Positions 4,817 to 25,485 of a DNA stretch of 64,000 nucleotides are shown here, one piece after another. The DNA comes from Chloroflexota bacterium. GTDB taxonomy: Bacteria; Chloroflexota; Anaerolineae; Aggregatilineales; J027. The notes under the pieces were generated by a model. The model was not told where the DNA came from and searched no databases. It saw nothing but the letters and a program-made list of their open reading frames with translations. Made by a program: the position numbers and the translations under genes. The stretch's first letter is position 1, and each line of letters opens with the position of its first letter. The stretch spans positions 62,001 to 126,000 of the forward strand of contig QMIT01000009.1 in NCBI GenBank assembly GCA_024434115.1, in the 5' to 3' direction.

Positions 4817-4844
4817 CATAATACTCTGATAGAGTTTGATTTAA

Positions 4845-4871
4845 GGGGTTCTCCGTCCAGCGGAGAACCCC
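4845..4871 (+). terminator. Strong intercistronic hairpin (3' stabiliser or attenuator)
   Basis: GGGGTTCTCCG (4845-4855) and CGGAGAACCCC (4861-4871) form a perfect 11-bp stem with a 5-nt loop between binding protein and first permease. No U-tract follows, so protection of the upstream message is more likely than full termination. Confidence 0.7.
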
Positions 4872-4908
4872 TCCCCGCCTAGAAATAGAGTTTAGGAAGA
4901 AAATAGCC

Positions 4909-5898
4909 GTGCTAAAATATCTTGCCCGTCGTCTACTCTTTATGATATTGACTGTTTGGATTATTACTGTGATCGCATTTGTGGTCATCCAAATACCACC
5001 GGGCGATTACGTAACCAACATGGTTTCTGAAATGATGTCGCAAGGCTCAGACAGAATAGACCCGGCTGTTACAGAACAGTTGCGCGACCAATATGGCCTG
5101 AATGATCCCGTCTATGTTCAGTATTATAAGTGGATGAAGAACATTGTTACCGAAGGTAACTTTGGATACTCTCTGACATTTAGGCGCGATGCAAGGGTCT
5201 TAATCCTTGAGCGTCTCCCCATGACATTCTTATTGACAAGTTCATCAGTTCTGTTCGTATGGTTTGTCTCCTTACCGATTGGGGTCTTTTCGGCGGTCAA
5301 GCAATATTCTATTTGGGACTATATAGCGACCTTTATTGGTTTCATCGGAGTAGCGACCCCCAATTTCCTCTTCGCTTTAATCCTGATGTATCTCAGTTAT
5401 CGTTATGGAGGGCGTGCCTTAATTGGCTTATTCTCTGCCGAATATGTCAATGCGTCTTGGAGTTGGGCCAGAGTTGCTGATCTGCTGAAACATATGATCA
5501 TCCCCGTAATTATCATCGGCACATCGTATACGGCTGGCTTGATCCGCACCATGCGGGCAAATCTCCTCGATGAACTGAAACGCCCATATGTTGATGCTGC
5601 CCGTGCGAAGGGACTTCCCGAAAGACGCCTCATATGGAAATACCCGGTACGCTATGCCTTAAATCCATTTGTGAGTACAATCGGGTGGGCATTGCCCGGA
5701 CTTGTCGCGGGTGAGGTGATTGTGTCCATTGTGCTAAATTTGCCAACATCGGGTCCTGTCTTATTTGAGGCGCTCAAAGAGCAGGATATGTATGTAGCAG
5801 CCGGATTTATACTCGTTTTGAGCACCTTAACTGTCATTGGAACCTTTATCTCGGATGTGCTACTAGTCATCCTCGATCCGCGCATCCGCCTAGAATAA
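4909..5898 (+). CDS. DppB/OppB-type ABC permease
   Basis: The 329-residue inner-membrane permease starts at GTG (AGGAAG ribosome site about 10 bases upstream). It has the N-terminal segment typical of DppB (MLKYLARRLLFMILTVWIITVIAF), about six membrane spans, and the EAA-type coupling loop DAARAKGLPERRLIWKYPVRYALNP that docks with the ATPases. With the downstream OppC-type partner it should form the channel of the importer. Confidence 0.92.
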   Translation: MLKYLARRLLFMILTVWIITVIAFVVIQIPPGDYVTNMVSEMMSQGSDRIDPAVTEQLRDQYGLNDPVYVQYYKWMKNIVTEGNFGYSLTFRRDARVLILERLPMTFLLTSSSVLFVWFVSLPIGVFSAVKQYSIWDYIATFIGFIGVATPNFLFALILMYLSYRYGGRALIGLFSAEYVNASWSWARVADLLKHMIIPVIIIGTSYTAGLIRTMRANLLDELKRPYVDAARAKGLPERRLIWKYPVRYALNPFVSTIGWALPGLVAGEVIVSIVLNLPTSGPVLFEALKEQDMYVAAGFILVLSTLTVIGTFISDVLLVILDPRIRLE

Positions 5899-5910
5899 GG
5901 ATTAATATTG

Positions 5911-7056
5911 ATGGATACAACTTTAGAACAACACGAGGCTGTAACGCCTGCGGCAAAGAATACCGCCCATACCGATACCGAGGTAGCTGTCGAATTCGCG
6001 TCGCAATGGCGATTAATGTGGTGGAAGTTTCGCAAACATCGTTTGGCAGTCGTCGGCTTGATTGTCGTCGTCACCTATTATGTCGTTGCGCTTTTCGCCA
6101 ACTTTTTTGCCCCGCAAGCGACCAAAACATATATCGCCGAATATGTATATTCGCCGCCACAACAGCTCCATTTTTTCCAAGATGGTCGCTTCTCGCCCTA
6201 TGTTCATCCCTATACCTATGAACGAGATCCGCTTTCTTACAAGAAAATCTATAAGGTAGATACCGAAACAATCATTCCAGTGGGCTTGTTTGTGCATGGT
6301 GATTCTTACGAGGTATTTGGCCTGTTTGAAACAGATTTACACCTTTTTGGCCCCAAAGAACACGGCCAGCCTTTCTACCTGTTAGGCGGTGATGCTATCG
6401 GGCGCGATCTTCTTAGCCGTACTATCTTTAGTGCGCGTATTTCCCTAGTCGTGGCTTGGGTTGGCGTTTCCATCAGCATGACCATTGGGATTATCCTCGG
6501 TGGAATCTCAGGGTTGTTGGGTGGTATGGTTGATAACATCATCCAACGGCTTATCGAAATTACGATGTCAATCCCTACGCTCCCTATCATTATTGCAATT
6601 GCGGCCTTAGTTCCAATTGATTGGAGCACTCTGCGGGTCTATACCATTATTGTGCTGCTGCTGGCTATTACCGGCTGGACAGGACTGGCACGTGTGGTGC
6701 GGAGTAAATTCCTAGTGCTGCGTGAGGAAGATTTTGTCCTTGCCGCACGACTAGATGGGGCGCGGTCTAGGCGCCTAATCTTTAAGCACATGCTCCCATC
6801 CTTTTACAGTCACATCATTGCTTCCGTCACCCTTGCTTTGCCGGGTATGATTCTGGCAGAGACAGCGCTCAGTTATCTTGGTTTTGGCTTGCGTCCACCT
6901 GCTGTTAGCTGGGGGGTGCAATTGCAACAGGCTCAACAGATCAATGTAATTTCAAATTATCCTTGGATGCTGGCGCCAGCAATTGCCGTGATTATTATCG
7001 TTCTAGCCTTTAACTTTTTGGGCGATGGATTGCGCGACGCGGCTGACCCGTACTAG
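5911..7056 (+). CDS. DppC/OppC-type ABC permease with enlarged external domain
   Basis: The 381-residue partner permease has an OppC N-terminal region (first span near residues 50-70), then about 100 extracytoplasmic residues rich in Tyr, Phe and Pro (roughly 75-170), then five spans with the coupling loop LAARLDGARSRRLIFKHMLPS. The external domain is much longer than in dipeptide permeases, a trait of OppC-like oligosaccharide or large-substrate systems. I prefer the ATG at 5911, preceded by AAGGA, over the TTG three bases earlier. Only 12 bases separate it from the other permease. A small hairpin (7058-7074) follows it. Confidence 0.9.
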   Translation: MDTTLEQHEAVTPAAKNTAHTDTEVAVEFASQWRLMWWKFRKHRLAVVGLIVVVTYYVVALFANFFAPQATKTYIAEYVYSPPQQLHFFQDGRFSPYVHPYTYERDPLSYKKIYKVDTETIIPVGLFVHGDSYEVFGLFETDLHLFGPKEHGQPFYLLGGDAIGRDLLSRTIFSARISLVVAWVGVSISMTIGIILGGISGLLGGMVDNIIQRLIEITMSIPTLPIIIAIAALVPIDWSTLRVYTIIVLLLAITGWTGLARVVRSKFLVLREEDFVLAARLDGARSRRLIFKHMLPSFYSHIIASVTLALPGMILAETALSYLGFGLRPPAVSWGVQLQQAQQINVISNYPWMLAPAIAVIIIVLAFNFLGDGLRDAADPY

Positions 7057-7111
7057 TGTGTATTAAAAATACACGGGCTTCTTGAAATTTAAGTGTTGAT
7101 AAAGGCTTATT

Positions 7112-8128
7112 ATGGCAGAGACATTACTCGAAGTAAAAGATTTACATATCCACTTCTCCACCGACGCTGGCGTGGTAAAAGCTGTTGATGGGGTTGATTT
7201 GGTCATTCAGCGCGGCAAAACATTGTGTTTGGTAGGGGAGAGCGGTTGCGGCAAAAGTGTAGCCAGCCGTTCATTTCTCAAAATCATCCACACCCCCGGC
7301 AAAATTGTGAAGGGCGAACTGCTGTATCACCAATCAGACGGCACGCTAATTGACATCGCTAAACTTGATGAAAAGGGACGGGCTATACGGAGAATACGCG
7401 GCAAGGAAATTGCGATGATTTTCCAAGAGCCGATGTCGTCCCTAAGTGTCATGCACACCATTGGTAATCAGATCATTGAAATGATCCAACTCCATACAGA
7501 TGCTACCAAGCAAGAAGCACGCGAACGCGCGATTGAATTGTTGCGCCTCGTCGAAATCCCAAGACCAGAACGTTTAATAGATGAATATCCGTTTCGCCTG
7601 AGTGGTGGGATGCGCCAGCGTGCGATGATTGCAATGGTATTATCCTGTAACCCGGCGCTGTTGATTGCTGATGAACCAACAACGGCCCTTGATGTCACTA
7701 CACAAGCCCAAATTCTCGATCTGATGCGTTCGCTGCAAGAAAAATATGACATGGGGATCCTCTTTATCACCCATGATTTAGGGGTCGTCGCCGAAATCGC
7801 CGATGAAGTGGCCGTGATGTATCTTGGGCGTATTGTGGAGCATGGGGATGTCAATACGATTTTCCATAATCCAAAGCACCCCTATACCAAAGCCTTACTC
7901 GAAAGCATCCCCAAAATGGCAGCCCAGCGTAACGCACTGAACCCAATAGAAGGGATGGTTCCCAGCCCATTTCGCCGACCCAGTGGCTGTGCTTTTCACC
8001 CCCGTTGTCGTGAACGTATTGAGCAGTGCAGCCATGTCGTGCCAGAAGTAACGCAACTGAGTGACAGCCATCAGGTGCGGTGTTTATTGGCCTCTCAGAA
8101 TCACGTGCAATTGGAGCGAGAAGTTTAA
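7112..8128 (+). CDS. OppD/DppD-type ABC ATPase
   Basis: The 338-residue ATPase has Walker A GESGCGKS, Q-loop MIFQEPMSSLS, signature LSGGMRQR, Walker B LLIADEPT and switch His in FITHDLG. The C-terminal oligopeptide-transporter extension carries a cysteine cluster (GCAFHPRCRERIEQC and a later HQVRC), often an iron-sulfur site in this family. It should pair with the next gene's product as the heterodimeric motor of the importer. Confidence 0.92.
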   Translation: MAETLLEVKDLHIHFSTDAGVVKAVDGVDLVIQRGKTLCLVGESGCGKSVASRSFLKIIHTPGKIVKGELLYHQSDGTLIDIAKLDEKGRAIRRIRGKEIAMIFQEPMSSLSVMHTIGNQIIEMIQLHTDATKQEARERAIELLRLVEIPRPERLIDEYPFRLSGGMRQRAMIAMVLSCNPALLIADEPTTALDVTTQAQILDLMRSLQEKYDMGILFITHDLGVVAEIADEVAVMYLGRIVEHGDVNTIFHNPKHPYTKALLESIPKMAAQRNALNPIEGMVPSPFRRPSGCAFHPRCRERIEQCSHVVPEVTQLSDSHQVRCLLASQNHVQLEREV

Positions 8129-8129
8129 G

Positions 8130-9227
8130 ATGCAAGCACAAACAATTAACGTAGAGGGGCTGTCCATGAATGACCCTCACAATATGCTGGAACTCCGCGA
8201 TTTGAAGAAGCACTTTCCTATCAATAAAGGTCTCTTTGGACAAACAACCGGGCATGTAAAAGCGGTTGATGGGGTCTCGCTGGAAATTCGTAATGGCGAA
8301 ACCTTTGGACTGGTGGGTGAAAGTGGCTGCGGTAAATCAACTATTGGACGCTGTATTGTCCGTGCATATAACATTACACAGGGACAAATGCTCTATCAGC
8401 AGAAATCGGGTAATGTTGTTGATCTTGCCCACACAGCCTCTAATCAATTGCGAAGTCTACGACATGAAATTCGGATGATCTTCCAAGACCCGTATTCATC
8501 ACTTAACCCGCGCATGACCGTCTTTGAAAATATTAGTGAGGCGCTCAAAATTAGTGGTACACCCCGCAGCGAAATGCAGGAACGGGTGGCTGTGATCTTG
8601 CGACGTGTAGGCTTACGTCAAGAATATATGTCACGCTATCCCCATGCCTTTAGCGGTGGCGAACGGCAGCGTATTGGTATTGCACGTTCCCTGATTACTG
8701 AACCGCGTCTGATTATTGCTGATGAGGCCGTATCCGCGCTGGATGTATCGGTGCGTGCTCAGATACTCAACCTCCTTAAAGAGTTACAGGATGAATTTCA
8801 ACTCACCTATCTTTTTATCTCGCACGACTTAAGTGTTATCCGGCATATTTGTGACCGTATAGCGGTGATGTATGTTGGAAAACTGGTCGAAACGGCCACT
8901 GGCGACGATTTATTCCGTCAGCCAAAACATCCCTATACCGAAGCGTTGCTTTCGGCTGTACCTATCACCGATCCTTTGGATAGAGGCAAACGTGTTCGCA
9001 TTCGCTTAACAGGCGAAGTGGCGGACCCCTCCAATCCACCAAAGGGGTGCTACTTCCATCCACGATGTGGCTATGCTCAGGAGAGATGTTCCACCGAAGA
9101 ACCGGAGGCACGGCACGCAGGACAGGACAAAGGTATAGTGAAATGCCATTTTTCAGAGGAACTCCATTTACAAGGCGTTATCGTGGATGATGATCGCTCG
9201 GCATTAATGGCAGAAAGCGCACGTTAG
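8130..9227 (+). CDS. OppF/DppF-type ABC ATPase
   Basis: This second ATPase has Walker A GESGCGKS, Q-loop MIFQDPYSSLNPRM, signature FSGGERQR, Walker B LIIADEAVSALD and the C-terminal cysteine extension GCYFHPRCGYAQERC. Note Ala after the Walker B Glu, in place of the usual Pro (DEAVSALD). The ATG at 8130 starts one base after the upstream stop codon, implying translational coupling. An alternative ATG at 8166 has a better ribosome site (GAGGGG) and would give a conventional N-terminus; the choice is open. It is the last gene of the importer unit before a repeat and a terminator. Confidence 0.9.
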   Translation: MQAQTINVEGLSMNDPHNMLELRDLKKHFPINKGLFGQTTGHVKAVDGVSLEIRNGETFGLVGESGCGKSTIGRCIVRAYNITQGQMLYQQKSGNVVDLAHTASNQLRSLRHEIRMIFQDPYSSLNPRMTVFENISEALKISGTPRSEMQERVAVILRRVGLRQEYMSRYPHAFSGGERQRIGIARSLITEPRLIIADEAVSALDVSVRAQILNLLKELQDEFQLTYLFISHDLSVIRHICDRIAVMYVGKLVETATGDDLFRQPKHPYTEALLSAVPITDPLDRGKRVRIRLTGEVADPSNPPKGCYFHPRCGYAQERCSTEEPEARHAGQDKGIVKCHFSEELHLQGVIVDDDRSALMAESAR

Positions 9228-9342
9228 GGAGCCTCAGCCTTTAAATCAGCCTGTTGAAAAAAAGGTCAATCTTGGATTGGTGGGTAAAATGGCCGACTAA
9301 TAAGAAAGGTCTTGCCATATGATACCAGATTCGGGTAAAGAC

Positions 9343-9410
9343 CACCCCCATCCCCAACCCTTCCCCAAACACAGGGAAGGGTTTCAATACAGGGGTATTC
9401 CCTCTCCCTA
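9343..9410. repeat. C-rich palindromic REP-like unit
   Basis: After the C-rich run CACCCCCATCC, the arms AACCCTTCCC (9356-9365) and GGGAAGGGTT (9374-9383) form a perfect 10-bp stem with loop CAAACACA, followed by a further C/T-rich part. This resembles dispersed palindromic repeats common between genes in Chloroflexota and cyanobacteria. Its copy number cannot be judged from one window. Confidence 0.5.
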
Positions 9411-9429
9411 TGCTTGTGGAGTGGTTAAG

Positions 9430-9470
9430 AAGGGCCTTCATCATCCGAATTCCGTATGAGAGGCCCTTTT
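9430..9470 (+). terminator. Probable terminator after the ABC importer
   Basis: AAGGGCCT (9430-9437) pairs with AGGCCCTT (9461-9468), followed by two more T. The loop is long (23 nt) but contains a further TCAT/ATGA pairing. Confidence 0.5.
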
Positions 9471-9508
9471 GAATTAAACCTTCTATTGTTTAAGGAACGA
9501 TCCTAAAG

Positions 9509-11047
9509 ATGACAAAAACAGAGATCACGATTGACCGCAACCAATCAGGCGAACCCCTTAACCCCTATTGGAAGGTGTGCGTCGGTGGCGGACGGGTTGC
9601 AGAAGCCCTACGCGCAGACTTCCAAAAACATCTGGAACTTATCCAGCGCGAGATACCCTTCGACTACATGCGAATGCACGGTCTATTCCACGAGGATATG
9701 ATGGTCTATCGAGAAGAAGACGGACAGCCCATTGTGAACTGGCAATACGTTGATCTCGTATACGACCACTGGCTCTCGATCAAGATTCGCCCATTTGTCG
9801 AACTTGGGTTTATGCCATATGACCTTGCAAGCGGGGAGGAGACGGTTTTCTGGTGGAAAGGCAACATTACCCCGCCCAATAATTGGGAGCGCTGGGAATG
9901 GTTTATTCAACAATTTATCCGGCACATTATCGAACGCTATGGTCAGGATGAAGTACGACGCTGGTATTTTGAAGTCTGGAACGAGCCGGACTTGTTTTTC
10001 TTCTGGAAAGATGCGGATTATGATGCTTATTTGGAGTTGTATAAACGGACCGTCCGTGCCATTAAGCAGATTGATGCATCCCTCAAAGTAGGCGGCCCTG
10101 CAACGGCGTCGGCATCGGCTGGCCCCGGTATAGCATCATGGGGCAATAAGTTCCTAAGTGCGTGCCGTGAAGAAAATATACCAATTGATTTCTTCTCAAC
10201 ACATCCCTATCCCACCAATCACCCATTTGATGCCGACGGTAAGGGCTATATGACGTGGGATGGGCCAGAGCGCCTCGTGGTTGACCTGACGGGTTATGAA
10301 AAAACGCTTGAAGAAAACGGTTACTCACATCTTGAAAAGCATTATACCGAATGGAGCAGTAGCCCAAGCCCGCGTGACCCCACTCACGATACGGCGTTCC
10401 TTGCCCCATTTATCGTACAGAACAATCTAGCTGGACATGGTCATGCCGATTCCCTATCCTTCTGGGTTATCAGCGACATTTTTGAAGAAACACGTGCCGG
10501 GGATGTACCGTTTCATGGCGGCTTCGGTTTGATTAATACACAGGGCCTAAAAAAACCTTCCTATCATGGCTATTGGTTTCTTTCCCGATTGGGAGATGAG
10601 ATACTCGATATGGGCGATTCGTTCGTTGTGACACGCCATACAAGCGGGAAAATCTCGGCTCTGGTATGGAATTATTGTCATTACACCAACGAGGCAGCAA
10701 GTGATCACCGTTTTGTCGAACAGGCTACTGGCACACGCCGACTTTACGATATGTTTGTACAAAAAGCGGCGAAAGAATTTACCTTGAATTTGCCGGGATT
10801 TGAGCGAAAAGTCCGGGTTCAGACTACCCGTTTTGACCGTGAACATGGTAGCGTGCTGGATGCTTGGTTTGATATGGGGTCACCGGAGCAGATTCTGCGT
10901 GAAGACCTTGACATACTCCGGCAAAAGATGGAACTGAAAATGAGTGTCGAATATCTTTCATCTACTCCAAATTTGTTGACCTTGAATTTAACAGTGCAAC
11001 CGCATGGGGTAACGCTCGTAGATATTTCAGAGAGCGCTTTCGCCTAA
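9509..11047 (+). CDS. xynB: GH39 family beta-xylosidase
   Basis: This 512-residue intracellular (no signal peptide) TIM-barrel glycosidase matches GH39. The acid/base Glu159 lies in FEVWNEPDL and the nucleophile Glu281 in HYTEWSSSPSPRD, about 120 residues apart as expected for clan GH-A. FFSTHPYP and LSFWVISDIFEE are further family stretches, and the C-terminal 150 residues are the accessory beta-sandwich. It should release xylose from the non-reducing end of xylo-oligosaccharides brought in by the upstream importer and partly trimmed by the GH43 enzyme. It is probably separately terminated from the importer, so may have its own promoter, but no further LacI-type operator was seen before it. 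Confidence 0.9.
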   Translation: MTKTEITIDRNQSGEPLNPYWKVCVGGGRVAEALRADFQKHLELIQREIPFDYMRMHGLFHEDMMVYREEDGQPIVNWQYVDLVYDHWLSIKIRPFVELGFMPYDLASGEETVFWWKGNITPPNNWERWEWFIQQFIRHIIERYGQDEVRRWYFEVWNEPDLFFFWKDADYDAYLELYKRTVRAIKQIDASLKVGGPATASASAGPGIASWGNKFLSACREENIPIDFFSTHPYPTNHPFDADGKGYMTWDGPERLVVDLTGYEKTLEENGYSHLEKHYTEWSSSPSPRDPTHDTAFLAPFIVQNNLAGHGHADSLSFWVISDIFEETRAGDVPFHGGFGLINTQGLKKPSYHGYWFLSRLGDEILDMGDSFVVTRHTSGKISALVWNYCHYTNEAASDHRFVEQATGTRRLYDMFVQKAAKEFTLNLPGFERKVRVQTTRFDREHGSVLDAWFDMGSPEQILREDLDILRQKMELKMSVEYLSSTPNLLTLNLTVQPHGVTLVDISESAFA

Positions 11048-11217
11048 AGATGATTTTACAGCGCATTTCAAGTAATCAAGTCCGGCCTGAGTACAGAAGC
11101 CAATGGCATCATAAAGGGAGACTGGGTCAAAGGGAGAACTGCGCAATACTCAACTGAAAAGGCTCGGCTTTAGGACGAAGCGGACGGAAAAGGGCCAAAC
11201 AAGTATTTAGCTATCGC

Positions 11218-11490
11218 TCATCCTGAGTACACTACGGCCCGCCAACAACCGATCACAGAAGTGCTGGTAACGTGCCAGTTGTCGTTACAGATTCGTGCGA
11301 TCCGGAATCCCCCAAACAAGCCATCATAATCCTGTTTCAGCCAGCGATAGAAGGCTCGAAAGTGTTCCCCTTTGACCACGAATAGAATCCCAATCGTCAC
11401 CACCTAGCTCGGAGACAACGTGGCTTGCGGCACTTTCACTAAATCATCGACAGAGCAAACAATGTGCAGGATAATATCTTCAGTGGTCAT
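11218..11490 (-). pseudogene. Broken DDE transposase N-terminus
   Basis: Reading from an ATG at 11490, MTTEDIILHIVCSVDDL and, after an in-frame TAG (about 11405), VVTIGILFVVKGEHFRAFYRWLKQDYDGLFGG match the N-terminal part of a common DDE transposase type (LVTIGLLFALKG..RAFYRWL). A frameshift follows: another frame continues with HFCDRLLAGRSVL. The catalytic domain is missing, so the gene is dead. The exact IS family is uncertain. Confidence 0.6.
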
Positions 11491-12734: not shown

Positions 12735-14201
12735 TCACTGTGGACATCCGTTCGTAGGGCTGCTCGTCGTAATTAGGACATCGGCAATCGGGCGATTAGC
12801 ATAAGCCTTATTGTTGACACCCGCATTGGCACAGTCCCGCCAATTAAAATTCGGGTCAGCCGCCGCTGCCAGTGCAACCATGACGCTAACAGCAGGGGCC
12901 GCAAATGAGGTACCAGCTATGTACTCGCCATTATCCAAATACCAGAGCGCCGGGGCCATCACTTCACCATTATTGGAAGGCGTCCATTGGAGGGTTGGTT
13001 CATTGGCGGTACTGCCACTGACACTGATTACCATGTCCCAACTGCCGGGGGCCAGCGAGGGGGCATAGCCCGGCATAGATCGGCCCAAGTTGCCTGCCGC
13101 TGCAACCGGTATGATAGGTGTTGAAGAAGTTTGCAGTAGATGATAAAGGGGCGTTAAATCAAAGTGATTCGGTGGAAGACCCGTCAAATAACCTAACACA
13201 TAGGCCGCCATCAACTGAATATTCTGATCCCATTGAGCCAATGTTAGGCCAGTTTGCCCACTCAAGGAAAGTTCTGTGAGGGCAAGGGTCAGCGAGTATC
13301 CACGAATAGCCTTAAAAAGGGCCAGCGCCGGAACTTGTGGCGAGGGAGTCACGGGTGTGCCCGCACGTTCAACACATAGGGTTAAGCTGTCCTCGGCGAT
13401 CATAGATGCCAAAACATTCGTCCATAGATCAACGCGATTATAGTCATCACAGGTGGTGTCGAACCCAGTGATGACGTCGCTCACTTCCAAACCTGCGTTT
13501 TCCAGCACGCCACTATCCTCCACACTAAGTACCTCCCAGTTGGGGGCGGCTTCTGCAATAAAGTCGCTGGCAAAATGGGTGGGCAAAAACTCGTCACGGA
13601 TATGGAGCGAAAATGGTTCAATCTGACAGGGTAGAACGGCGAAACTCATATTGAGTACCACTTTGTCGTAACTTGGATTTTCTGTAATTTTTGTCTGTAT
13701 GGCGCTTTCGATATTGGTTAAGTCGTATCCGGGAATGTTAACTGTGTCAATTTTGAAATCCGCCGTTGTGTACTCGTCTCCTTCTTCTTGAGGTGGTTGG
13801 CTTGGAACTAGCTGCTCATAAACCTGTTGCACTATATCAAGGACTGCTTGACCGTGTGTTAGTCCATTCTTGCTCGACTTGGCCGGATTGTTGAAATCGT
13901 CCACCACCAAAATCAAAACGCGGGCATCGCCTGTGGTGACTTCATCTGGTATCCAATGCCCAAAGTCCCCAAGTGTTACAACGCCTTCAGGTACGACGAA
14001 ATTGGGATCGCTGGTAATGCCTGAGCCACTTCCCGGATAGACCCACTCTTGCCCGGTAGTTTGGAAGTCATTGAGGGCACATACATCAGGCGGGACATCA
14101 TCTTGGGCATTTATAGGTTCTGGATAATGAAGCGATGGCGTGACCACCAGAAGTGCTAGGCACATGACTATAAACATATGAAGTTTCTTACGACGTTTCA
14201 T
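12735..14201 (-). CDS. Secreted subtilisin-like (S8) protease with inserted PDZ-like domain
   Basis: The 488-residue protein starts at the ATG preceded by AAGGAG, with a signal peptide ending near INAQ (residue 33). The S8 triad is present in order: Asp101 or Asp102 (LILVVDDFNN), His116 (GLTHGQAV) and Ser432 (AGTSFAAPAV), plus oxyanion Asn371 (AAAGN). Between His and Asn the domain is split by about 60 residues (222-283) with PDZ features: VLSVEDSGVLENAGLEVSDV, then ITGFD, and LTLCVERAG near the end. Such an insertion is unusual and could bind substrate C-termini or regulate activity. The gene lies 19 bases behind the STAND regulator gene on the same strand, so the two are probably one operon; a regulatory protease role is inferred. 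Confidence 0.85.
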   Translation of the reverse strand: MKRRKKLHMFIVMCLALLVVTPSLHYPEPINAQDDVPPDVCALNDFQTTGQEWVYPGSGSGITSDPNFVVPEGVVTLGDFGHWIPDEVTTGDARVLILVVDDFNNPAKSSKNGLTHGQAVLDIVQQVYEQLVPSQPPQEEGDEYTTADFKIDTVNIPGYDLTNIESAIQTKITENPSYDKVVLNMSFAVLPCQIEPFSLHIRDEFLPTHFASDFIAEAAPNWEVLSVEDSGVLENAGLEVSDVITGFDTTCDDYNRVDLWTNVLASMIAEDSLTLCVERAGTPVTPSPQVPALALFKAIRGYSLTLALTELSLSGQTGLTLAQWDQNIQLMAAYVLGYLTGLPPNHFDLTPLYHLLQTSSTPIIPVAAAGNLGRSMPGYAPSLAPGSWDMVISVSGSTANEPTLQWTPSNNGEVMAPALWYLDNGEYIAGTSFAAPAVSVMVALAAAADPNFNWRDCANAGVNNKAYANRPIADVLITTSSPTNGCPQ

Positions 14202-14220
14202 AATAAGCTCCTTAGGGTGT

Positions 14221-16968
14221 CTAATTGGATTTCTTGTTTGAATCGGGGGGGAGTGTATAATTATTTTTCCGCATAAATCTAAGTAGTCGTTCGATACGGC
14301 TTGTGGCGCCGCTGGCTTTCCAAAGTGTATACGCTTGCTCGAAATGGTATTGAGCCTTATCCCGCGCACCAACGGCATCGTAGTCTTCACCCAGCGACAT
14401 CAAGGCGTCTGCCATCCAGTGCTTATTGTCAAGTTCATGAGCCAAACGATAGGCGTCTTGGTCTGAGACCAGCGCTAACTCCAACCAGCCAAGTATACGT
14501 TCACAATTGCCACGATTAATCAAAGCCATGAAATGGACTTCATGCAGGTTAAGCTGGGTAGCGATTTCTACTGCCTCATCAGAACAACGACGGCTATTCT
14601 CATAATTCGGTGGGGTTTTCCGACCTTCATAAAAGCTGCGGTGACTTAATACATAGGCACGTCTGTTGTCATCGTTGTGGTCGCGTGCTAGGGCATAGGC
14701 TTCTTCATAATAATGTTCGGGGTCGCTACCCTGTTGAAATTCGGTGGTGCCGATCAGAGTCAACAGGGTGATAATACGATTCGAGTTTCCCATCAATCGG
14801 GCAAATTCTAAGGATTCATGATAAGCCTCCAAGCCTTGAGCAAGGTTTCCCAAATAGATCGCATAAGCATCGCCATATTTGCCTAGTAGATAGTGGGCGG
14901 GTTCGATCCATTGTTCGGCTTTGGCGGCCTCAATTGCGAGACGCATGAGGTACAGTACACTCGCACTGTAGCCACGTGACGCAAAATAACCCGACTCGCC
15001 AGAATCCACCGCCAGCAGTCGCATGATTTCGACCAACTCCTCCCACAGGTGGGTCTCATAGGCGGCATAGGCGGCCCCCAACAGATTTCCCAGTTCAGCA
15101 TCGAGCGCCGTCAAGGTTTTGGTATGTCGGGCAGCACATTCTCGGCAAGCAGCAATGACTGTAGTTTGTGAAAGGCGGCTGTTGGCACGGGCATAGCTGT
15201 AGGCCAAATCGTGGACACGATAGATCGTCAGATCGGGACTTGCGGGACCAAGTCGCTCCACTAGGCCACGCCGCTGAAGCTCAGAACAGAGAGCCTCGAT
15301 ACCGTCTCGGTTTTTGTTCAGGCAAAGCGCCAGTAGGTCGGACGTTGCAGTCGTCGTGAACAAGGCACCAAAGGCCAGAAAAACATCACGTGCCGAAGGA
15401 TCCAGTGACGCGATGCTGGCATCCATCAATTCTTTGATACTCTCACGCCCCTCATTGGCAAACCAAGCTGGCATGGTCATCAGGTGGAGCGATTTGCCAA
15501 ACCGATTCAGCAACTCAGCGGGGGTCAAGTCATCCACAAGCAAGGTCTTGCCCGCGATTTCCAGCGCAAAGGGATGAAATCCCAAGCGGCGGCAAAGCTT
15601 CTGGGCGTCGTCATCATGAGCCAGAAATGTTCGATTGGCGTGATAGTTGAGCAAAGCCATAGCATCTGGAGGGGTGAGTTCGGTCACGTTGAGGATCGGC
15701 CCAACGGGGATGCGTTGTCGGGATGTAACGAGTACTGGGACTTGTATCGGGATGGCTTGCATTATCTGTTGAAGCGTCCGCCCATCTTGAGCATCATCAA
15801 TCACGACTAACTTGATGCCCGCTTCCGCCAATAGACTCCGCATTTTTTGGAGGCGTAATTCGCTCTCCCCAACAGCAATCTCGCGGTGAGCATCAAAAGG
15901 ACGCGCCATCGCCTCCAGTAGCGCCCCGACAGGCTCATCCCGTGCCACCAGCCACAGCACAGGGGTGTGTCCTTCGGCGACCCATCTAGCAGTAGCCTCG
16001 GCAGCGAGAACGGTTTTGCCTATCCCGCTGAATCCTTGCAGCAGCACCCGTCGTTGGTTATTCAACAATTCGTGCAACTGGGCCAGCAAGTCAGTTCGTC
16101 CAAACAAAAATTCAGGACGCAGTGGCACATCATTTTCCGTGTGAATCAACAACCCCGGCACAGCAGATGCCAGTGGGGATTCTTCGGTTTTCTTTTTCTT
16201 ATCAGTAGGCCGCTGGTTACTTGGCGGCAATTCGCCCCGTCGGATGCGTTCGTACAATTCTGTTATCTCAGGCGAGGGCACAATGTCCAATTTTTTCTGC
16301 AAAATCTCGCGGCAGCTATCATATTTTTGTAGGGCAGCGGTGCGTTCACCGGAGCGCCACAGCAATTCCATTAAGCGACGATACGATTCTTCACGCAGTT
16401 GATCCATTTGGAGCAGTGCGGTGGCTCGGGCAATACCTGCTGGATAATTGCCCGTCTCTAGATAACAAACGACGACGGTATCTAGTGCATTTATCGCCCG
16501 CATCTTCCAATGCTCACGTTCGAGAGTTGCCCATATGTCAAACGCGCTGCTGTCCACAAAGAAGCCAACCAAAAAATCACCCCGATACAACTCAAGGGCC
16601 GACTCAAGGTGGTCAACTTCGCTGCTAGAGACCAAGCGTCGCTCGAATTCTAGGGTATCAAGCCAAATGGCACTTGCCGGATTCAGCCCAATGTCATCGT
16701 GGGTGATGTTCATAAAGGCGGGGAGTCTTTTTTTCAGGCTGACCAACGCCACACGCAAATTATCTTTGGCTTGGGAAGCACTGCTATATTCCCAAAATAT
16801 CTCGGCCAATTCATCACGGGAATACGCCTCGCGGGCATTTTGCTTTAGCGTACACGCCAAATAAACCAACAGTGCCTCGGTCTTGCGAGTTTCAAAACCC
16901 GACACGACCTGCCCATCCACTTGAAAGTTCAGCCCGCCAAGCGCACGGATTTCCAATGACGGTGTCAT
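14221..16968 (-). CDS. SARP-STAND regulator (AfsR-like: winged helix, BTAD, NB-ARC, TPR)
   Basis: The 915-residue protein begins with an OmpR-type winged helix (1-95) followed by a bacterial transcriptional activation domain (about 100-245). Then comes a STAND NTPase with P-loop GFSGIGKT (312-319), Walker B IKLVVIDDAQD and an NB-ARC-like winged-helix part. From about residue 650 it is helical TPR-like (for example ELALVSDQDAYRLAHELDNKHWMADALMSLGE). This is the AfsR/MalT-like layout of signal-gated activators: the TPRs sense, NTP drives oligomerisation, the winged helix binds direct repeats. It shares an operon with the subtilase and starts 13 bases from a five-unit 11-bp repeat array, its likely DNA target. 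The inducing signal is unknown. Confidence 0.88.
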   Translation of the reverse strand: MTPSLEIRALGGLNFQVDGQVVSGFETRKTEALLVYLACTLKQNAREAYSRDELAEIFWEYSSASQAKDNLRVALVSLKKRLPAFMNITHDDIGLNPASAIWLDTLEFERRLVSSSEVDHLESALELYRGDFLVGFFVDSSAFDIWATLEREHWKMRAINALDTVVVCYLETGNYPAGIARATALLQMDQLREESYRRLMELLWRSGERTAALQKYDSCREILQKKLDIVPSPEITELYERIRRGELPPSNQRPTDKKKKTEESPLASAVPGLLIHTENDVPLRPEFLFGRTDLLAQLHELLNNQRRVLLQGFSGIGKTVLAAEATARWVAEGHTPVLWLVARDEPVGALLEAMARPFDAHREIAVGESELRLQKMRSLLAEAGIKLVVIDDAQDGRTLQQIMQAIPIQVPVLVTSRQRIPVGPILNVTELTPPDAMALLNYHANRTFLAHDDDAQKLCRRLGFHPFALEIAGKTLLVDDLTPAELLNRFGKSLHLMTMPAWFANEGRESIKELMDASIASLDPSARDVFLAFGALFTTTATSDLLALCLNKNRDGIEALCSELQRRGLVERLGPASPDLTIYRVHDLAYSYARANSRLSQTTVIAACRECAARHTKTLTALDAELGNLLGAAYAAYETHLWEELVEIMRLLAVDSGESGYFASRGYSASVLYLMRLAIEAAKAEQWIEPAHYLLGKYGDAYAIYLGNLAQGLEAYHESLEFARLMGNSNRIITLLTLIGTTEFQQGSDPEHYYEEAYALARDHNDDNRRAYVLSHRSFYEGRKTPPNYENSRRCSDEAVEIATQLNLHEVHFMALINRGNCERILGWLELALVSDQDAYRLAHELDNKHWMADALMSLGEDYDAVGARDKAQYHFEQAYTLWKASGATSRIERLLRFMRKNNYTLPPDSNKKSN

Positions 16969-16980
16969 TGCTGCCCCCTC

Positions 16981-17035
16981 TGAACGCTCTCTGAACGTTA
17001 CTTGAACGTTACTTGAATCATCTTTGAACTATCGG
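16981..17035. promoter_or_regulatory. Five direct repeats, 11-bp period: probable SARP binding array
   Basis: TGAAC/TGAAT cores begin at 16981, 16992, 17003, 17014 and 17025, exactly 11 bp apart; units 2 and 3 are identical TGAACGTTACT. SARP/OmpR-type regulators bind direct repeats with this spacing, one face of the helix. The array lies between the divergent regulator and secreted-protein genes, and could control both. Confidence 0.75.
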
Positions 17036-17116
17036 CTAACGGCCATTTCCTAAGCTGAGGTTGAAAAGGGGTGACGCCCCTTAGAAACCGATGTCAAAAA
17101 ACCAGTGAGATGAGCC

Positions 17117-17956
17117 ATGAACATTCAAGTTAGCCATATAGTAACACAAAATTCGCGGAAAAATATTAAACGTCGGTATAGCGCAGCTATCTGCATTGTT
17201 GTAGGAATTCTAATCCTTGCGTTCTACTCAATGAGAAGTTCTGTGGTTCCAGCTTTTGCTCTGGGTCCAGATATGAACGATCTGTATGATTTGGTACAGC
17301 AAGGCGAGGGCAATGTGGCAGTTCAGCAGGTGGCGGTATTTGCTCAAGAATTAGGCGGGTGGGGGCCCGCTCCCGGCGATGAGGTCGTCTTTGATCCCCA
17401 CATGGATCGGGACATACGCGGGGCATTGGTCGAGGTTGACTATCCCGCACACTGCTACGAGCGCAAGGGCGTGCCAGATCAAACAGAGTGTATTGAATAC
17501 TACCAGATGATTGAACGGCGGGTGCGTTTTGGGCGATCATTATTCACAACCCCTAACGGCGATGGCACCGAAACGCTCCGCCCCATGTTTGAAGATGTGC
17601 TCTCAACCTTCATTGAAGAAGTGGGGCACTCGTGGCAGGAATATTTATACGAGACCGATGGTCAAGCTGGCCCGCGTCTACATGAGACCACCCAAGCCGA
17701 AGCGGAACGGTGGGCAGCAGGCCGGGAGTATCAGATTAAACGTTACATCCTGAGTCTTGACGGCGTTGTATTTACGCTCTCCGATCAGCAGCTAGCGACT
17801 CTGCGTAGCCATATCTGTGAAGGCTATGCCAATCCTATCAACCATGAAATCCCGACATTTGCGGCACCTACGGGTTGGCCTCATCCTGAAGGTTGGCCTA
17901 CAACGATGCCATCCGCTATCGAGTTCGATGCCTTTTGCCATACTGACCACTTATGA
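17117..17956 (+). CDS. Secreted or membrane-anchored protein of unknown function
   Basis: The 279-residue product has a basic N-terminus and one hydrophobic segment (residues 24-45, IVVGILILAFYSM), so it is exported or anchored. I do not recognise the family. A central stretch TFIEEVGHSWQEYLYETDG, then HETTQAEAERWAAGREYQI, looks like a zincin helix in which the first His of HExxH is Glu; without a relative this is only a resemblance. Three cysteines lie outside (in HCYERK, TECIEYY and SHICEGY) and another in FCHTDHL. The gene diverges from the SARP-STAND/subtilase operon across the repeat array, so it is probably a target of that regulator and possibly a substrate or partner of the protease. 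Confidence 0.7.
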   Translation: MNIQVSHIVTQNSRKNIKRRYSAAICIVVGILILAFYSMRSSVVPAFALGPDMNDLYDLVQQGEGNVAVQQVAVFAQELGGWGPAPGDEVVFDPHMDRDIRGALVEVDYPAHCYERKGVPDQTECIEYYQMIERRVRFGRSLFTTPNGDGTETLRPMFEDVLSTFIEEVGHSWQEYLYETDGQAGPRLHETTQAEAERWAAGREYQIKRYILSLDGVVFTLSDQQLATLRSHICEGYANPINHEIPTFAAPTGWPHPEGWPTTMPSAIEFDAFCHTDHL

Positions 17957-18308
17957 TGGTCTTCCAAGTAGCGTCAATATGAGTCATCCTCCAAGAATTC
18001 CTGTCGAAACGGACAAGAAGAAGATGACTCATGATATTCGCCTTGAGTAACATAGCCTTTCAACCTATCTACCCCACCTCCCCGTCTTTTCAGGGCAACC
18101 CGCGTATCCTTTTCGACTAAAGGCGCGGACTACAAGGCCGCGCCCGCAATCTCGCACGCCAGTTCACGAGCGTGTGTAGGGTGTAACCAGACATGCTGTC
18201 CAGTCGCCGCAACCCAAAGAGGCAAAGGCCAGATTGCATGTTAGTGATACCTTACTATAAGACGACGCTCCGATTAGAATCTGATCTTATAGAACTTACG
18301 GTTCCTGC
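17957..18308. other. Intergenic stretch, nothing recognised
   Basis: No open frame of note, no clear hairpin with a T-run and no repeat were found here; it leads into a possible reverse-transcriptase scrap. Confidence 0.4.
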
Positions 18309-18463
18309 TCAAATAAGTGCCTCACTGCAAATGATTTTTGCCACTGGTTGCTCATCCTGAAAAGCATGGTTGTCAAGCCAGTCTCGCATGTTGTATTGTA
18401 GGTAGATATTGGCAAGCATCTTTAGCAACGGCTGCCCTTGACGGTTGCTTCGGCGGATACTTT
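18309..18463 (-). pseudogene. Possible group II intron reverse transcriptase scrap
   Basis: An open fragment reads RQGQPLLKMLANIYLQYN and MRDWLDNHAF before a stop at 18309-18311. The QG..L..LANIYL..Y...W arrangement recalls the reverse-transcriptase block QGG.ISPLLANIYL of group II introns. No upstream or downstream domains remain, so identification is tentative. Confidence 0.4.
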
Positions 18464-18661
18464 CTTGCCCATTGCTTTCCCCTTTAGATGTTCCAATGGG
18501 TGGAAAGTTTTTTCTATTCTAACCTATCTCTGTGTCCAAGTCGCGCTGAAACGGAACGGGTGTTGCCACTGTTCGTTCGTTAGTTCATGTCGTCTTTTGC
18601 TCCTACTGCAACATTTTAAGTCTATTCATTCTGTTTGCAAACACGCCCTAGTCAATATCTC

Positions 18662-21305: not shown

Positions 21306-22903
21306 CCCATCGAATTTTAATTGCAACGTCGCTGTCCGAAGCCGGATTAAATCTGTTAAAAGGAGAGATCGGAGGTTTGGTGCAGGTGGTTGAACCGGAA
21401 AACCTGAGCAAACACCCGATGCTGAATGCTACGGAGGCTTTAATCATCCGGGATGAGGTGGAGATTGACACTGCCCTGCTGGAAAAAATGCCCAAACTGC
21501 GGGTGATTGGGCGGGCCGGGGTGGGCATTGCGGGGATTGATGTCGAGGCGGCTACCCGGCGTGGCATTATCGTCATGAATACCCCCGGCGTGAATGCGGT
21601 CAGCACCGCCGAATATACCTTTACCTTGATGCTGGCGATGGCGCGGAACTTGATTCAAGCCCACAACGCGATGACGGGTGGGATATGGAAACGCGAACAG
21701 CATGTGGGGATGGAACTGCACGGTAAACGATTGGGCATTATCGGTTTAGGTCGGGTGGGGCGTGAGGTCGCACGGCGGGCGATGGCTTTTGGTATGACCG
21801 TGCAAGCCTATGACCCGTATGTGACCGAAAATCAACTGGGCGATTTAAGACTAAAACTGGTTGGCCTAGCTCAATTATTGGCGGATTCCGATGTCATCAG
21901 TTTACACTGTGCCACGACATCTGAAACAGTAGGATTGTTAAATGCCGATACCTTCGCGTTGATTAAGAATGGGGCGCTACTCATTAACACCGCACACGGC
22001 AGCATCGTTGATGAAAATGCTCTCCTGACGGCCTTGAAAAATGGGCGGTTGGCGGGGGCAGCAGTGGATGTGTATGCCCATGAACCCATCACTAATTCAC
22101 CGCTGCTCAATTTGCCCAATGTGCTGCATACCCCCCATTTAGGTGACAGCACGCGCGAAGCCCAACGCGATTTAGGTTTGTTGATCGCGCGGCAGGTGCT
22201 CGATGCTCTGCGCGGCGAAGATTATCGCAATGTCGTCAACATGCCGTTTGTAGATGGGCGACCCTTTGAGATGATCGCCCCCTATTTGAAATTGGCGGAA
22301 CGCATCGGGATGTTGCAACATGCGCTGGCACGCGGGCCAATTAACCGGGTGATGCTGGAATTTAGGGGACAGGAGGTTGAAGGGCTGGTCAAACCAATGA
22401 CGGTGGCCTTGCTGCGCGGCCTGTTGATGCCAATTTTAGGCGAGGGCACAGTAAATTATATCAACGCACCCGTGCTGGCCCATGAGCGTAATATCTTTGT
22501 CAGCCAAACCAAAGGACTGGATAGCCCTGATTATGCCAATTTGATGTCGTGTCAGGTGCATTGGCTGGGGCCACACGCGGGCAGTACCACGATGGCCGGG
22601 GCGTTGTTTGGGCGCACCGAGGCCCATATCGTGAAGATTAATCAATATCGTACCGACTTTCAACCGGAAGGGGTGCTGTTGGTCATTGGAAGCTATGACC
22701 GCCCCGGCGTGATCGGACGGGTCGGCTTGCTACTGTCGGAAAACAGCATCAATATCGCGGATTGGCGGACAGGACGCGCCGAGCCGGGGGGGCAAACCCT
22801 ATCGGTAGCAATTTTGGACGAGCCAATTTCGGATGATCTGCTGGAAACCTTACGTTCGCAGGATTATGTGCGGCACGCGACCCAGATTGTTTTTTCATCC
22901 TAA
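21302..22903 (+). CDS. serA: D-3-phosphoglycerate dehydrogenase
   Basis: The 533-residue enzyme makes 3-phosphohydroxypyruvate, the first step of serine synthesis. Its catalytic domain has RAGVGIAGID, the NAD motif GIIGLGRVGREVARRA and an active-site region LINTAHGSIVDE; an intervening domain and a C-terminal ACT domain (LLVIGSYDRPGVIGRVG) follow, the long form found in many bacteria. I chose GTG at 21302 (GAGGGG ribosome site eight bases upstream), giving a 4-base overlap with the hydrolase. In the usual catalytic His-Pro region the sequence reads HTPHLGDSTREAQ, so the catalytic His is kept but the usual Ala-Ala after Gly/Gln is replaced. It converges on the kinase gene with a 4-base overlap. 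Confidence 0.93.
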   Translation: MTHRILIATSLSEAGLNLLKGEIGGLVQVVEPENLSKHPMLNATEALIIRDEVEIDTALLEKMPKLRVIGRAGVGIAGIDVEAATRRGIIVMNTPGVNAVSTAEYTFTLMLAMARNLIQAHNAMTGGIWKREQHVGMELHGKRLGIIGLGRVGREVARRAMAFGMTVQAYDPYVTENQLGDLRLKLVGLAQLLADSDVISLHCATTSETVGLLNADTFALIKNGALLINTAHGSIVDENALLTALKNGRLAGAAVDVYAHEPITNSPLLNLPNVLHTPHLGDSTREAQRDLGLLIARQVLDALRGEDYRNVVNMPFVDGRPFEMIAPYLKLAERIGMLQHALARGPINRVMLEFRGQEVEGLVKPMTVALLRGLLMPILGEGTVNYINAPVLAHERNIFVSQTKGLDSPDYANLMSCQVHWLGPHAGSTTMAGALFGRTEAHIVKINQYRTDFQPEGVLLVIGSYDRPGVIGRVGLLLSENSINIADWRTGRAEPGGQTLSVAILDEPISDDLLETLRSQDYVRHATQIVFSS

Positions 22904-25485
22904 TCAGTGGGGGAAACGCGAATCCGCTGTACATATTCCCCTGCCATATAATTGCTGCTGCCATCCGTGACCATGCGGGTTAGGGTGTAGCGAATTTCAA
23001 AATCGAGCGGTGCGTTATTGGGAAATGTCCAATCACGCACGAGGGTTGCCCATGTGTGGCAGCGATTGTCATTCTCGGTGTAATCGTATTCAAACCAATA
23101 CCGACTGCCGATGTCTATACCATTGAGAAAAAATTTCATGGTCAGGGCATCTAGGTTGGCTTGTAATAATTCATTGGTGGCCGTACACCAGATAAAGTTC
23201 CAGCGCAGGGTTTCGGTGGGATCAATGGTGATTTCATATTCGGCTGTGCCGGGGGACTTCAAATCTCGAAATTGGGCTTCGATCGGTGTCCAGAGACTTT
23301 CGTATAGGATAACCTCGTTGATAGTCGAGGGTGCAGTCAAGCGCACGGGCAAATCTAGCAAAGCCTCTTGATCTTGATGCAGTGCCCATATTTTGACATC
23401 GCCCTGACGACTGACCGAGGCCAACATTGTACCATCGGCGTTGAAGGCCAGTTTATTGATAAACGGGCTGGGTTGCTGCTGAAGGGTGGCGATTTCTTCA
23501 TCTGAGGCGACATCCCATAAACGAACCGACCCATTGGAACCGCCTATCGCCAAAAGACTACCATCCGGGCTGTAGCGCAGAGTGGTGATCCAACTGGTGG
23601 GTGGCTCCAAAATATCCAGTGCATCACCATTTTGAACATCCCAGATTCGCAGGGTACGATCCGCACTACCCGAAGCCAAGCGCGTACCCGTCGGATTAAA
23701 GGCCACCGTAAAGACTAAATCGGTGTGGCCTGCTAATTCGGTCAACATGGTGCGGTTTTCAACATCCCATATCCGTACCATAAAATCGCTGCCCGCCGAA
23801 GCCACCCATTTTCCATCCGGGCTGAAGACTACTTCTTCCACGGAGCGCGAATGCCCCCCCAAGACAATGCCTGAGCCATCCACGACACCCCACAGCCAGA
23901 TTTTGCCATCCGCTCCGGCAGAGACCAATTGAGTCCCGTCAGGGCTAAAGGCAACACTGTGTACATTGTTGTCATGCCCCCGCAGAACTGATAATTCTGA
24001 ACCTGTGCGGGTTTCCCAGATGCGGATGGTGTTGTCGTCTGCACCGGAAGCGATTTTGCTGCCATCGGGGCTAAAGGCGACAGTCACGACATCATCGGTA
24101 TGCCCACGCAGCAGGCGAACTTCTTCATCTACCATCGAAATTAGGTAAATGCCTTCCGGACGGGCTAGGGCCAATAATTCCCCATCGGGCGACCATGCCG
24201 CGTCCTGCGCTTCAAGGCCGGGGATGGTTCGCAAGATTTCCACTTCGGTGGCGGTTTGGGCCGTAATTTGCAGTGGATTTGCAGGGGTGGCAGTCGCCGT
24301 TTCAGCTTCGGGGGTGTTGGTCGGGATAGGTGTTTCTTTGGCGGGTGAGGCATCGGTAGAGGCGTTTGGTGAAACTTGGAGCCGATCATCGGTAATGGTC
24401 GGGAACTGTTCGTTTTCGCGTGTGGGATCATCCTCTTGATTGCTGAGTAATACAATCAACCCGCCGAATCCAATCATCAAGAGGCCCATCAACAGCAGGC
24501 TGCCAATCATCCAGCGATTATTTTTGCGTCGGCGGGGTTGGTGGCGCTCAAAGGGGGTGCGGGTGTCGTCCATTGGGCCAGAGGGGACAGGCGGCAGGGT
24601 TTCAAACGTCTTGCTCCCCAAAAATCCAGTGGTGAGACGTTCTTGGGTGGGGATTTCGGCAATCGCTTCTTCCAACGCGGTGACAAAGGTACTGGCGTTG
24701 GGATACCGTATACCGGGGTCTTTGGCAAGCACCCGATTCATGACTGAATTGACAGCCGGGGGCAGATTAGGTTGGACAAGGGAGGGCGGCTTGGCATTTT
24801 CATGCAAGTGTTTGTGCATCATCGCGTAGGGTGTGCTGGCTTGGAAGGGTAGTTCATCCGTCAGCAAAATGTAGGCGATAACGCCTAACGAATATATATC
24901 GGCCCGCGTATCCACACTTTCGGCCCGCCATTGTTCTGGTGACATATAGGCGGGTGTACCCATTGCCTGTCCGGTTGTCGTCAATCCACTTTTTTCGACC
25001 TGTAACAGCTTGGCGATCCCAAAATCGCCCAGATAAGCGTTACCTTCGGTGTCAAAGAGGACATTGCTGGCCTTGAGGTCGCGGTGAATGATGTTTTGTT
25101 TGTGGGCATAATCCAAGCCACTGCCGATTTGCCGCAAAATTTGCAGAGCCTCGCGCAGGGAAGGGCGCTTAAAAAATTCAAGGCGCTGGCTTAATGTACC
25201 ACCTGTCAGGAGACGCATGACGATGTAACTGATACCTTCATCCGTGCCGTGATCGTAAATCGGCAGGATGTGGGGATGTTCCAATAGGGCAGCGAGTTGA
25301 ACTTCGCGCTCAAAACGTTCGGCATAATCGGCTTGTTGGGCAAACTGAGGCGGCAGCACCTTAACGGCAACTTTGCGCCGAACGGCGGTTTGATAGGACT
25401 CATAGACGGCACTCATCCCACCCACACCAATGAGATCACCGAGTTTGTAGCTGCCAAGCTGTTGTCCAGTCAGGTTATGCTGCAT
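22900..25485 (-). CDS. Membrane Ser/Thr protein kinase with WD40 propeller
   Basis: The 861-residue protein has an N-terminal Hanks-type kinase (Gly loop GVGGMSAVY 20-28, Lys42, HRDLKASN with Asp136, DFG 154-156, GTPAYMSPEQ), a juxtamembrane linker, one span at about 325-350 (WMIGSLLLMGLLMIGFGGLI), a Thr/Pro-rich stalk and seven WD40 blades (for example LLRGHTDDVVTVAFSPDGSKIASG). A C-terminal jelly-roll-like domain of about 140 residues follows. By topology the kinase is cytoplasmic and the propeller outside. Such receptors are typical of Chloroflexota and other complex bacteria. The FHA protein and PP2C phosphatase genes in this window could belong to the same phospho-signalling network (inference). 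Confidence 0.9.
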   Translation of the reverse strand: MQHNLTGQQLGSYKLGDLIGVGGMSAVYESYQTAVRRKVAVKVLPPQFAQQADYAERFEREVQLAALLEHPHILPIYDHGTDEGISYIVMRLLTGGTLSQRLEFFKRPSLREALQILRQIGSGLDYAHKQNIIHRDLKASNVLFDTEGNAYLGDFGIAKLLQVEKSGLTTTGQAMGTPAYMSPEQWRAESVDTRADIYSLGVIAYILLTDELPFQASTPYAMMHKHLHENAKPPSLVQPNLPPAVNSVMNRVLAKDPGIRYPNASTFVTALEEAIAEIPTQERLTTGFLGSKTFETLPPVPSGPMDDTRTPFERHQPRRRKNNRWMIGSLLLMGLLMIGFGGLIVLLSNQEDDPTRENEQFPTITDDRLQVSPNASTDASPAKETPIPTNTPEAETATATPANPLQITAQTATEVEILRTIPGLEAQDAAWSPDGELLALARPEGIYLISMVDEEVRLLRGHTDDVVTVAFSPDGSKIASGADDNTIRIWETRTGSELSVLRGHDNNVHSVAFSPDGTQLVSAGADGKIWLWGVVDGSGIVLGGHSRSVEEVVFSPDGKWVASAGSDFMVRIWDVENRTMLTELAGHTDLVFTVAFNPTGTRLASGSADRTLRIWDVQNGDALDILEPPTSWITTLRYSPDGSLLAIGGSNGSVRLWDVASDEEIATLQQQPSPFINKLAFNADGTMLASVSRQGDVKIWALHQDQEALLDLPVRLTAPSTINEVILYESLWTPIEAQFRDLKSPGTAEYEITIDPTETLRWNFIWCTATNELLQANLDALTMKFFLNGIDIGSRYWFEYDYTENDNRCHTWATLVRDWTFPNNAPLDFEIRYTLTRMVTDGSSNYMAGEYVQRIRVSPTD

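Follow-up and report, generated by a model that had tools for sequence, protein, structure and literature searches.

A SARP-STAND regulator paired with a predicted exported, zincin-like protein in uncultured Chloroflexota

Introduction

A secreted S8 protease, an AfsR-like regulator and a divergently transcribed protein that we call X lie side by side in a 64 kb stretch of Chloroflexota DNA (the window, meaning the whole stretch that was analysed), with an array of direct repeats between the regulator and X. The question raised by this locus is which of these parts belong together. SARP regulators are known chiefly as antibiotic switches of Streptomyces, and AfsR is phosphorylated by the Ser/Thr kinase AfsK. 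A preliminary description of the window suggested that the three genes form a module of sensing regulator, protease and exported target. Here we examine the genes, the array and their occurrence in other genomes.

Results

Domain structure of the regulator

The regulator gene (14221–16968, minus strand) encodes a SARP-STAND protein of 915 amino acids, with an N-terminal winged helix, a BTAD domain at residues 117–243 (E 2e-22), an NB-ARC domain at 303–419 and TPR repeats at 814–884, identified as TPR_12. The match to Trans_reg_C, at 39–84, is weak (E 0.08). The protein thus has the winged helix and BTAD domain of a SARP and, behind them, the NTPase (NOD) and TPR parts of a large SARP of the AfsR type. 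It scores 48 of 1430 bits against the NCBIfam AfsR equivalog, which is under the cut-off, and we therefore call it AfsR-like rather than AfsR.

The DNA-binding halves of the regulators linked to X form one related group and score 129–573 bits among themselves (lower for the frameshifted copy in locus L037), as against at most 134 bits with the other BTAD proteins of the host. The part that follows the SARP half is NB-ARC plus TPR in the window, L003 and L031, nSTAND1 plus WD40 in L038, and protein kinase, nSTAND1 and WD40 in L034 and L036. The sensor half is swapped between lineages; the DNA-binding half, the promoter and X are kept. In L034 (972–6758) and L036 (2601–7853), BTAD, protein kinase, nSTAND1 and WD40 form one chain of 1750–1930 amino acids. 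The host genome has seven nSTAND1 matches in all, and its second regulator–X pair (L003, G000:C2) has kinase-nSTAND1-WD40 genes on both sides, at 4696–9363 and 13452–18482. The kinase is fused to the SARP in one lineage and encoded next to it in another, which by analogy suggests that it may feed the SARP as AfsK feeds AfsR.

The window also encodes a Ser/Thr kinase-WD40 protein (22900–25485, minus strand), about 5 kb from X, which is a possible AfsK-like partner. Defence-system models gave generic TPR and kinase matches and nothing else. We found no literature on SARP or BTAD proteins in Chloroflexota, and none on BTAD-WD40-kinase fusions.

In its order of winged helix, BTAD, NTPase and TPR, the regulator resembles AfsR of Streptomyces, whose target is afsS, and a kinase input is plausible. 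It differs in belonging to Chloroflexota, in having as its predicted target one exported protein rather than antibiotic genes, and in its six units of the CGAACG/TGAACG type. Unlike AfsR, the regulators here have sensor halves that are swapped between lineages, and in some the kinase itself is fused to BTAD. There is also a resemblance to the STAND conflict systems of multicellular bacteria (PMC7159879), Chloroflexota included, which combine STAND, kinase or WD40 sensors with peptidase-type effectors; here, however, the STAND module belongs to a transcription factor whose effector is predicted to be exported, and SARP or BTAD proteins are not mentioned in PMC7159879.

X is a strongly conserved family

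X (17117–17956, plus strand) is 279 amino acids long and begins with a hydrophobic, export-type N-terminus, predicted to be a signal peptide. It matched no family in Pfam or NCBIfam, and no solved relative was found in the PDB by sequence. The preliminary description had called it a protein of unknown family, and this holds: X does not belong to a known unrelated family, and on these searches it is an undescribed one. In the alignment of X copies, cysteines 113, 125, 234 and 274 are invariant, except that C234 is gone in the one copy fused to an Rhs protein (see below). X is probably exported, and two disulfides would stabilise it.

X carries the motif E167-E168-x-x-H171-S-W-Q174, followed later by E204-Y-Q. 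Residues E167, E168, H171, Q174 and E204 are invariant, also in the Rhs-fused copy, and the position of HExxH is occupied by EExxH in all 15 free-standing copies and in the fused one. Purifying selection on X is strong, with dN/dS of about 0.09.

Occurrence of X and of the regulator

The host genome (5.28 Mb) has as its named relatives MAGs of the Anaerolineae/Aggregatilineales in the Chloroflexota. X was searched for in all of this genome, among its relatives, across 400 genomes of the phylum and, using a profile, in 154 genomes of the order. Fifteen free-standing copies were found, in 12 of the 154 genomes, together with the single Rhs-fused copy. Among the 400 genomes of the phylum there were matches in the host alone, a profile run on 396 genomes of the class yielded nothing convincing beyond the order, and no X was found on plasmids or viral contigs.

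Ten of the 15 copies have a divergent BTAD regulator as their direct neighbour (window, L003, L029, L031, L032, L033, L034, L035, L036 and L037), and the number rises to 11 if one inserted gene is allowed; in the additional locus, L038, a single gene (aldolase-like by eye) stands between regulator and X. Because the entire host genome has only nine BTAD matches, this adjacency is far from random. Two X genes have neither array nor regulator, and two have the array and no adjacent regulator (L020 and L030). The sequence distances of X and of the regulator are weakly correlated when near-identical pairs are left out (Mantel r 0.44, p 0.04); the value of 0.85 for all pairs is inflated by three near-identical pairs.

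Several individual loci deserve description. In L037 the regulator (2–694) beside X appears to be frameshifted after about 74 residues, with X and the array intact. In L040, X lacks both array and regulator and stands beside what looks by eye like an operon (3126–9687) of sigma factor, anti-sigma factor and CHAT-like protein, followed by an S8 protease (Pfam). L028 (G404:C331, approximately 9431–11233) encodes a protein with Rhs repeats that ends in an X-homologous domain bearing the motifs EEVGHTWQ and REYQVK.

The Rhs-fused copy hints that the X domain can serve in conflict between cells. We considered X as an Rhs polymorphic toxin and rejected this, given that X is free-standing with its own signal peptide and that the fusion is confined to L028. 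No conserved immunity gene was found beside the X loci, which argues that the target of X lies outside the producer and disfavours a self-harming toxin.

The repeat array and the X promoter

The preliminary description had recognised a binding array of five units between the genes. The position stands; the number is six, in 11-bp phase, at 16981–17042 on the plus strand (TGAACGC, TGAACGT, TGAACGT, TGAATCA, TGAACTA and CTAACGG), and the array faces X. The last unit, CTAACGG, occupies the −35 position, and the proposed −10 box, TAAGCT (17051–17056, plus strand), starts 8 bp after it, so that the X promoter in the window reads CTAACGG-CCATTTCC-TAAGCT. According to PMC10936776, a SARP site consists of direct repeats spaced by one or two turns of the helix, and 8 bp lie between its 3′ repeat and the −10 box. 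The X promoter has this geometry, with 11-bp spacing and 8 bp to the −10 box, as does the AfsR/afsS promoter with its 11-bp direct repeats (PMC10936776). In its exact form the three-unit pattern is found at one place in the window. With up to three mismatches there are three overlapping matches, all inside the array, against 0.05 expected by chance in the window; the array is therefore not a product of chance. The linkage of three genes and an array is real.

When the regions upstream of X were aligned without gaps on a common CCTA anchor, invariant positions were seen in nine loci. A heptamer, 8 bp and TANNNT occur in this arrangement once only within 250 bp upstream of 13 of the 15 X genes, with the T, A and T invariant; among these genes are those of two weaker lineages, L003/L032/L033 and L035. 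When the window and its congener were left out of the training, the resulting matrix gave 70.7 for the window array and −5.1 for the best site elsewhere in the 64 kb. An array profile matched a single site in the host's genome (E 5e-19; the next had E 0.49), and in the host's second X–regulator pair the array is weakened. Over the 154 genomes the profile gave 11 matches, of which nine lie before an X gene, a tenth before a decayed X and the last before a pair of hydrolases. Because almost all of these matches lie upstream of X, the regulator seems, in essence, to have a single target. The array is well supported as the predicted binding site, as originally suggested; more precisely, what it serves is the X promoter.

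The decayed X, in L099 (1992–2371, G463:C199), was outside the training set; the signal peptide is joined to the last residues and the middle is missing. The hydrolase pair is in L100 (at 5161, G450:C3:1458160), where an array-like promoter precedes two tandem genes that look by eye like secreted hydrolases, and is the sole candidate for an extra target. A different BTAD gene of the host (L055, G000:C14, approximately 7085, reverse strand) comes with a three-unit 11-bp repeat of its own, GTGACAG, which may be a site for another SARP.

The protease

Downstream of the regulator lies a secreted S8 subtilase (12735–14201, minus strand; Pfam PF00082, E 4.5e-10). Its best start is the ATG at 14201, after AAGGAGC. 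The catalytic motifs read from the sequence are complete (D101/D102, H116, N371 and S432) and are present in both homologues. Only 19 bases separate the stop codon of the regulator from the start of the protease, which is consistent with one operon; the two genes are probably cotranscribed, as had been proposed. The subtilase had further been described as split by a PDZ domain. The subtilase assignment stands, and a PDZ-like insert is plausible from the sequence pattern, with a Pfam PDZ_2 match of E 0.25 (under the cut-off) and a pLDDT of 57 for the model of the insert.

The protease accompanies X at two of the 15 loci, the window and L029, which are from the same genus, and is missing at the other 13. 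Apart from generic matches to the catalytic core, its company with X is limited to these two congeners. Between the window and L029, dN is 0.48 for the protease, 0.12 for X and 0.16 for the regulator. Because of this rarity and this dN, the triplet is not a conserved system. Homologues of the regulator and X are thus usually neighbours, and the protease, rare and faster-evolving, drops out of the module first proposed: judged from sequence, it is a lineage-specific accessory downstream of the regulator.

Predicted structure of X

The structure of mature X was predicted with a pLDDT of 90. A Foldseek search with the model found nothing significant. In a structural re-alignment of the model, the best nine rows were all zincin metallopeptidases, with modest VIA Z values of 5.8 to 3.6; the top rows comprised Spartan, MATCAP, lugdulysin, ACE, LTA4H, clostridial light chain and aminopeptidases. 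In the model, the helix expected to hold HExxH holds EExxH, and a second helix holds E204. Because of these top rows and these helices, we read X as zincin-like with an altered or lost metal site, and the modelled fold is likely to be that of a zincin. Without the first metal-binding His, X may perhaps not be a protease; that it binds metal and is catalytic is our inference.

The model of X resembles zincins such as Spartan/SprT (6mdw), MATCAP, lugdulysin and LTA4H/PepN in having an active-site helix with ExxH and, after it, a helix that bears a Glu, but in all members of the X family Glu replaces the first metal-binding His, there is no sequence match, and Z is at most 5.8. The EExxHxxQ...E of X also resembles the HExxHxxQ...E of the PVC/eCIS-core metallopeptidase (DUF4157, PF13699) and of the Tox-MPTase of Rhs toxins (PMC3482391); unlike those domains, X is a separate protein with its own signal peptide, and it has no profile–profile similarity to them. 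Membership of the eCIS-core family (PF13699) was rejected, with an hhalign probability of 0.1% and no Pfam match.

Discussion

We propose that the regulator and X form a two-gene regulator–effector pair with a private promoter, in which a sensor-driven activator has one main target, an exported zincin-type metallopeptidase-like effector. We put the probability of this reading at roughly 0.6. In the proposed mechanism, the STAND NTPase and TPR sensor part would keep the AfsR-like protein inactive until it is released by a cytoplasmic signal, or by a Ser/Thr kinase that phosphorylates it as AfsK does AfsR. The winged-helix/BTAD part would then bind the six in-phase repeats and recruit RNA polymerase to the weak X promoter. 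X would be exported and would act outside the membrane, its first metal-binding His being replaced by Glu. The activation of X, the trigger and the extracellular target are predictions of this model.

Other explanations differ from this one over X, the array or the protease. X could be a dead zincin, a pseudoenzyme with a binding, sensing or structural role outside the cell. The replacement of the first His of HExxH by Glu in all copies favours this, as do the substituted catalytic motifs described for other zincin families, such as CLCA (PMC3650047). Dead sites are, however, usually less constrained than the site in X, where neither the residues of Glu-Glu-x-x-His-x-x-Gln nor the later Glu vary, even in the Rhs-fused copy, and we consider a pseudoenzyme possible but clearly the less probable reading. 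It is very unlikely that the array serves mainly for autoregulation by a general regulator, with X as a bystander. Only 12 bp separate the array from the start codon of the regulator, so binding should affect expression of the regulator too; but the array and the −10 box point at X and are kept before X genes with no adjoining regulator (L020 and L030), and the host genome has a single array site.

The protease suggests a further alternative, a three-part envelope or peptide-signalling module in which the S8 protease would act on X or on a peptide signal and the regulator would detect the processed product. The protease is indeed complete and secreted, and in the window as in one congener it follows the regulator at a distance of 19 bp. 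Its absence from 13 X loci, the restriction of its company with X (beyond catalytic-core matches) to two congeners, and its lower constraint than that of X or the regulator nevertheless make such a module unlikely.

A bolder form of the regulator–effector reading is that X represents a new class of exported EExxH metallopeptidases used as inducible conflict effectors, under a SARP with exchanged sensors of the TPR-STAND, WD40-STAND and kinase-STAND-WD40 types. We offer this tentatively, and regard it as rather improbable. If it were true, different threats could trigger the same weapon through the exchanged sensor halves.

Every feature tested identifies the regulator itself as a SARP. The new elements are its predicted dedicated exported target, the undescribed EExxH family to which that target belongs, and the exchange of sensors around a fixed output. 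In uncultured Chloroflexota a SARP is thus found as the apparent private switch for a single exported protein, with the promoter, the DNA-binding half and the target retained. The joining of a kinase, a STAND NTPase and a SARP in a single polypeptide hints that the logic of AfsK and AfsR was put together from separable parts. With X comes a family that has no name, is under strong constraint and may have exchanged His for Glu in a zincin active site.
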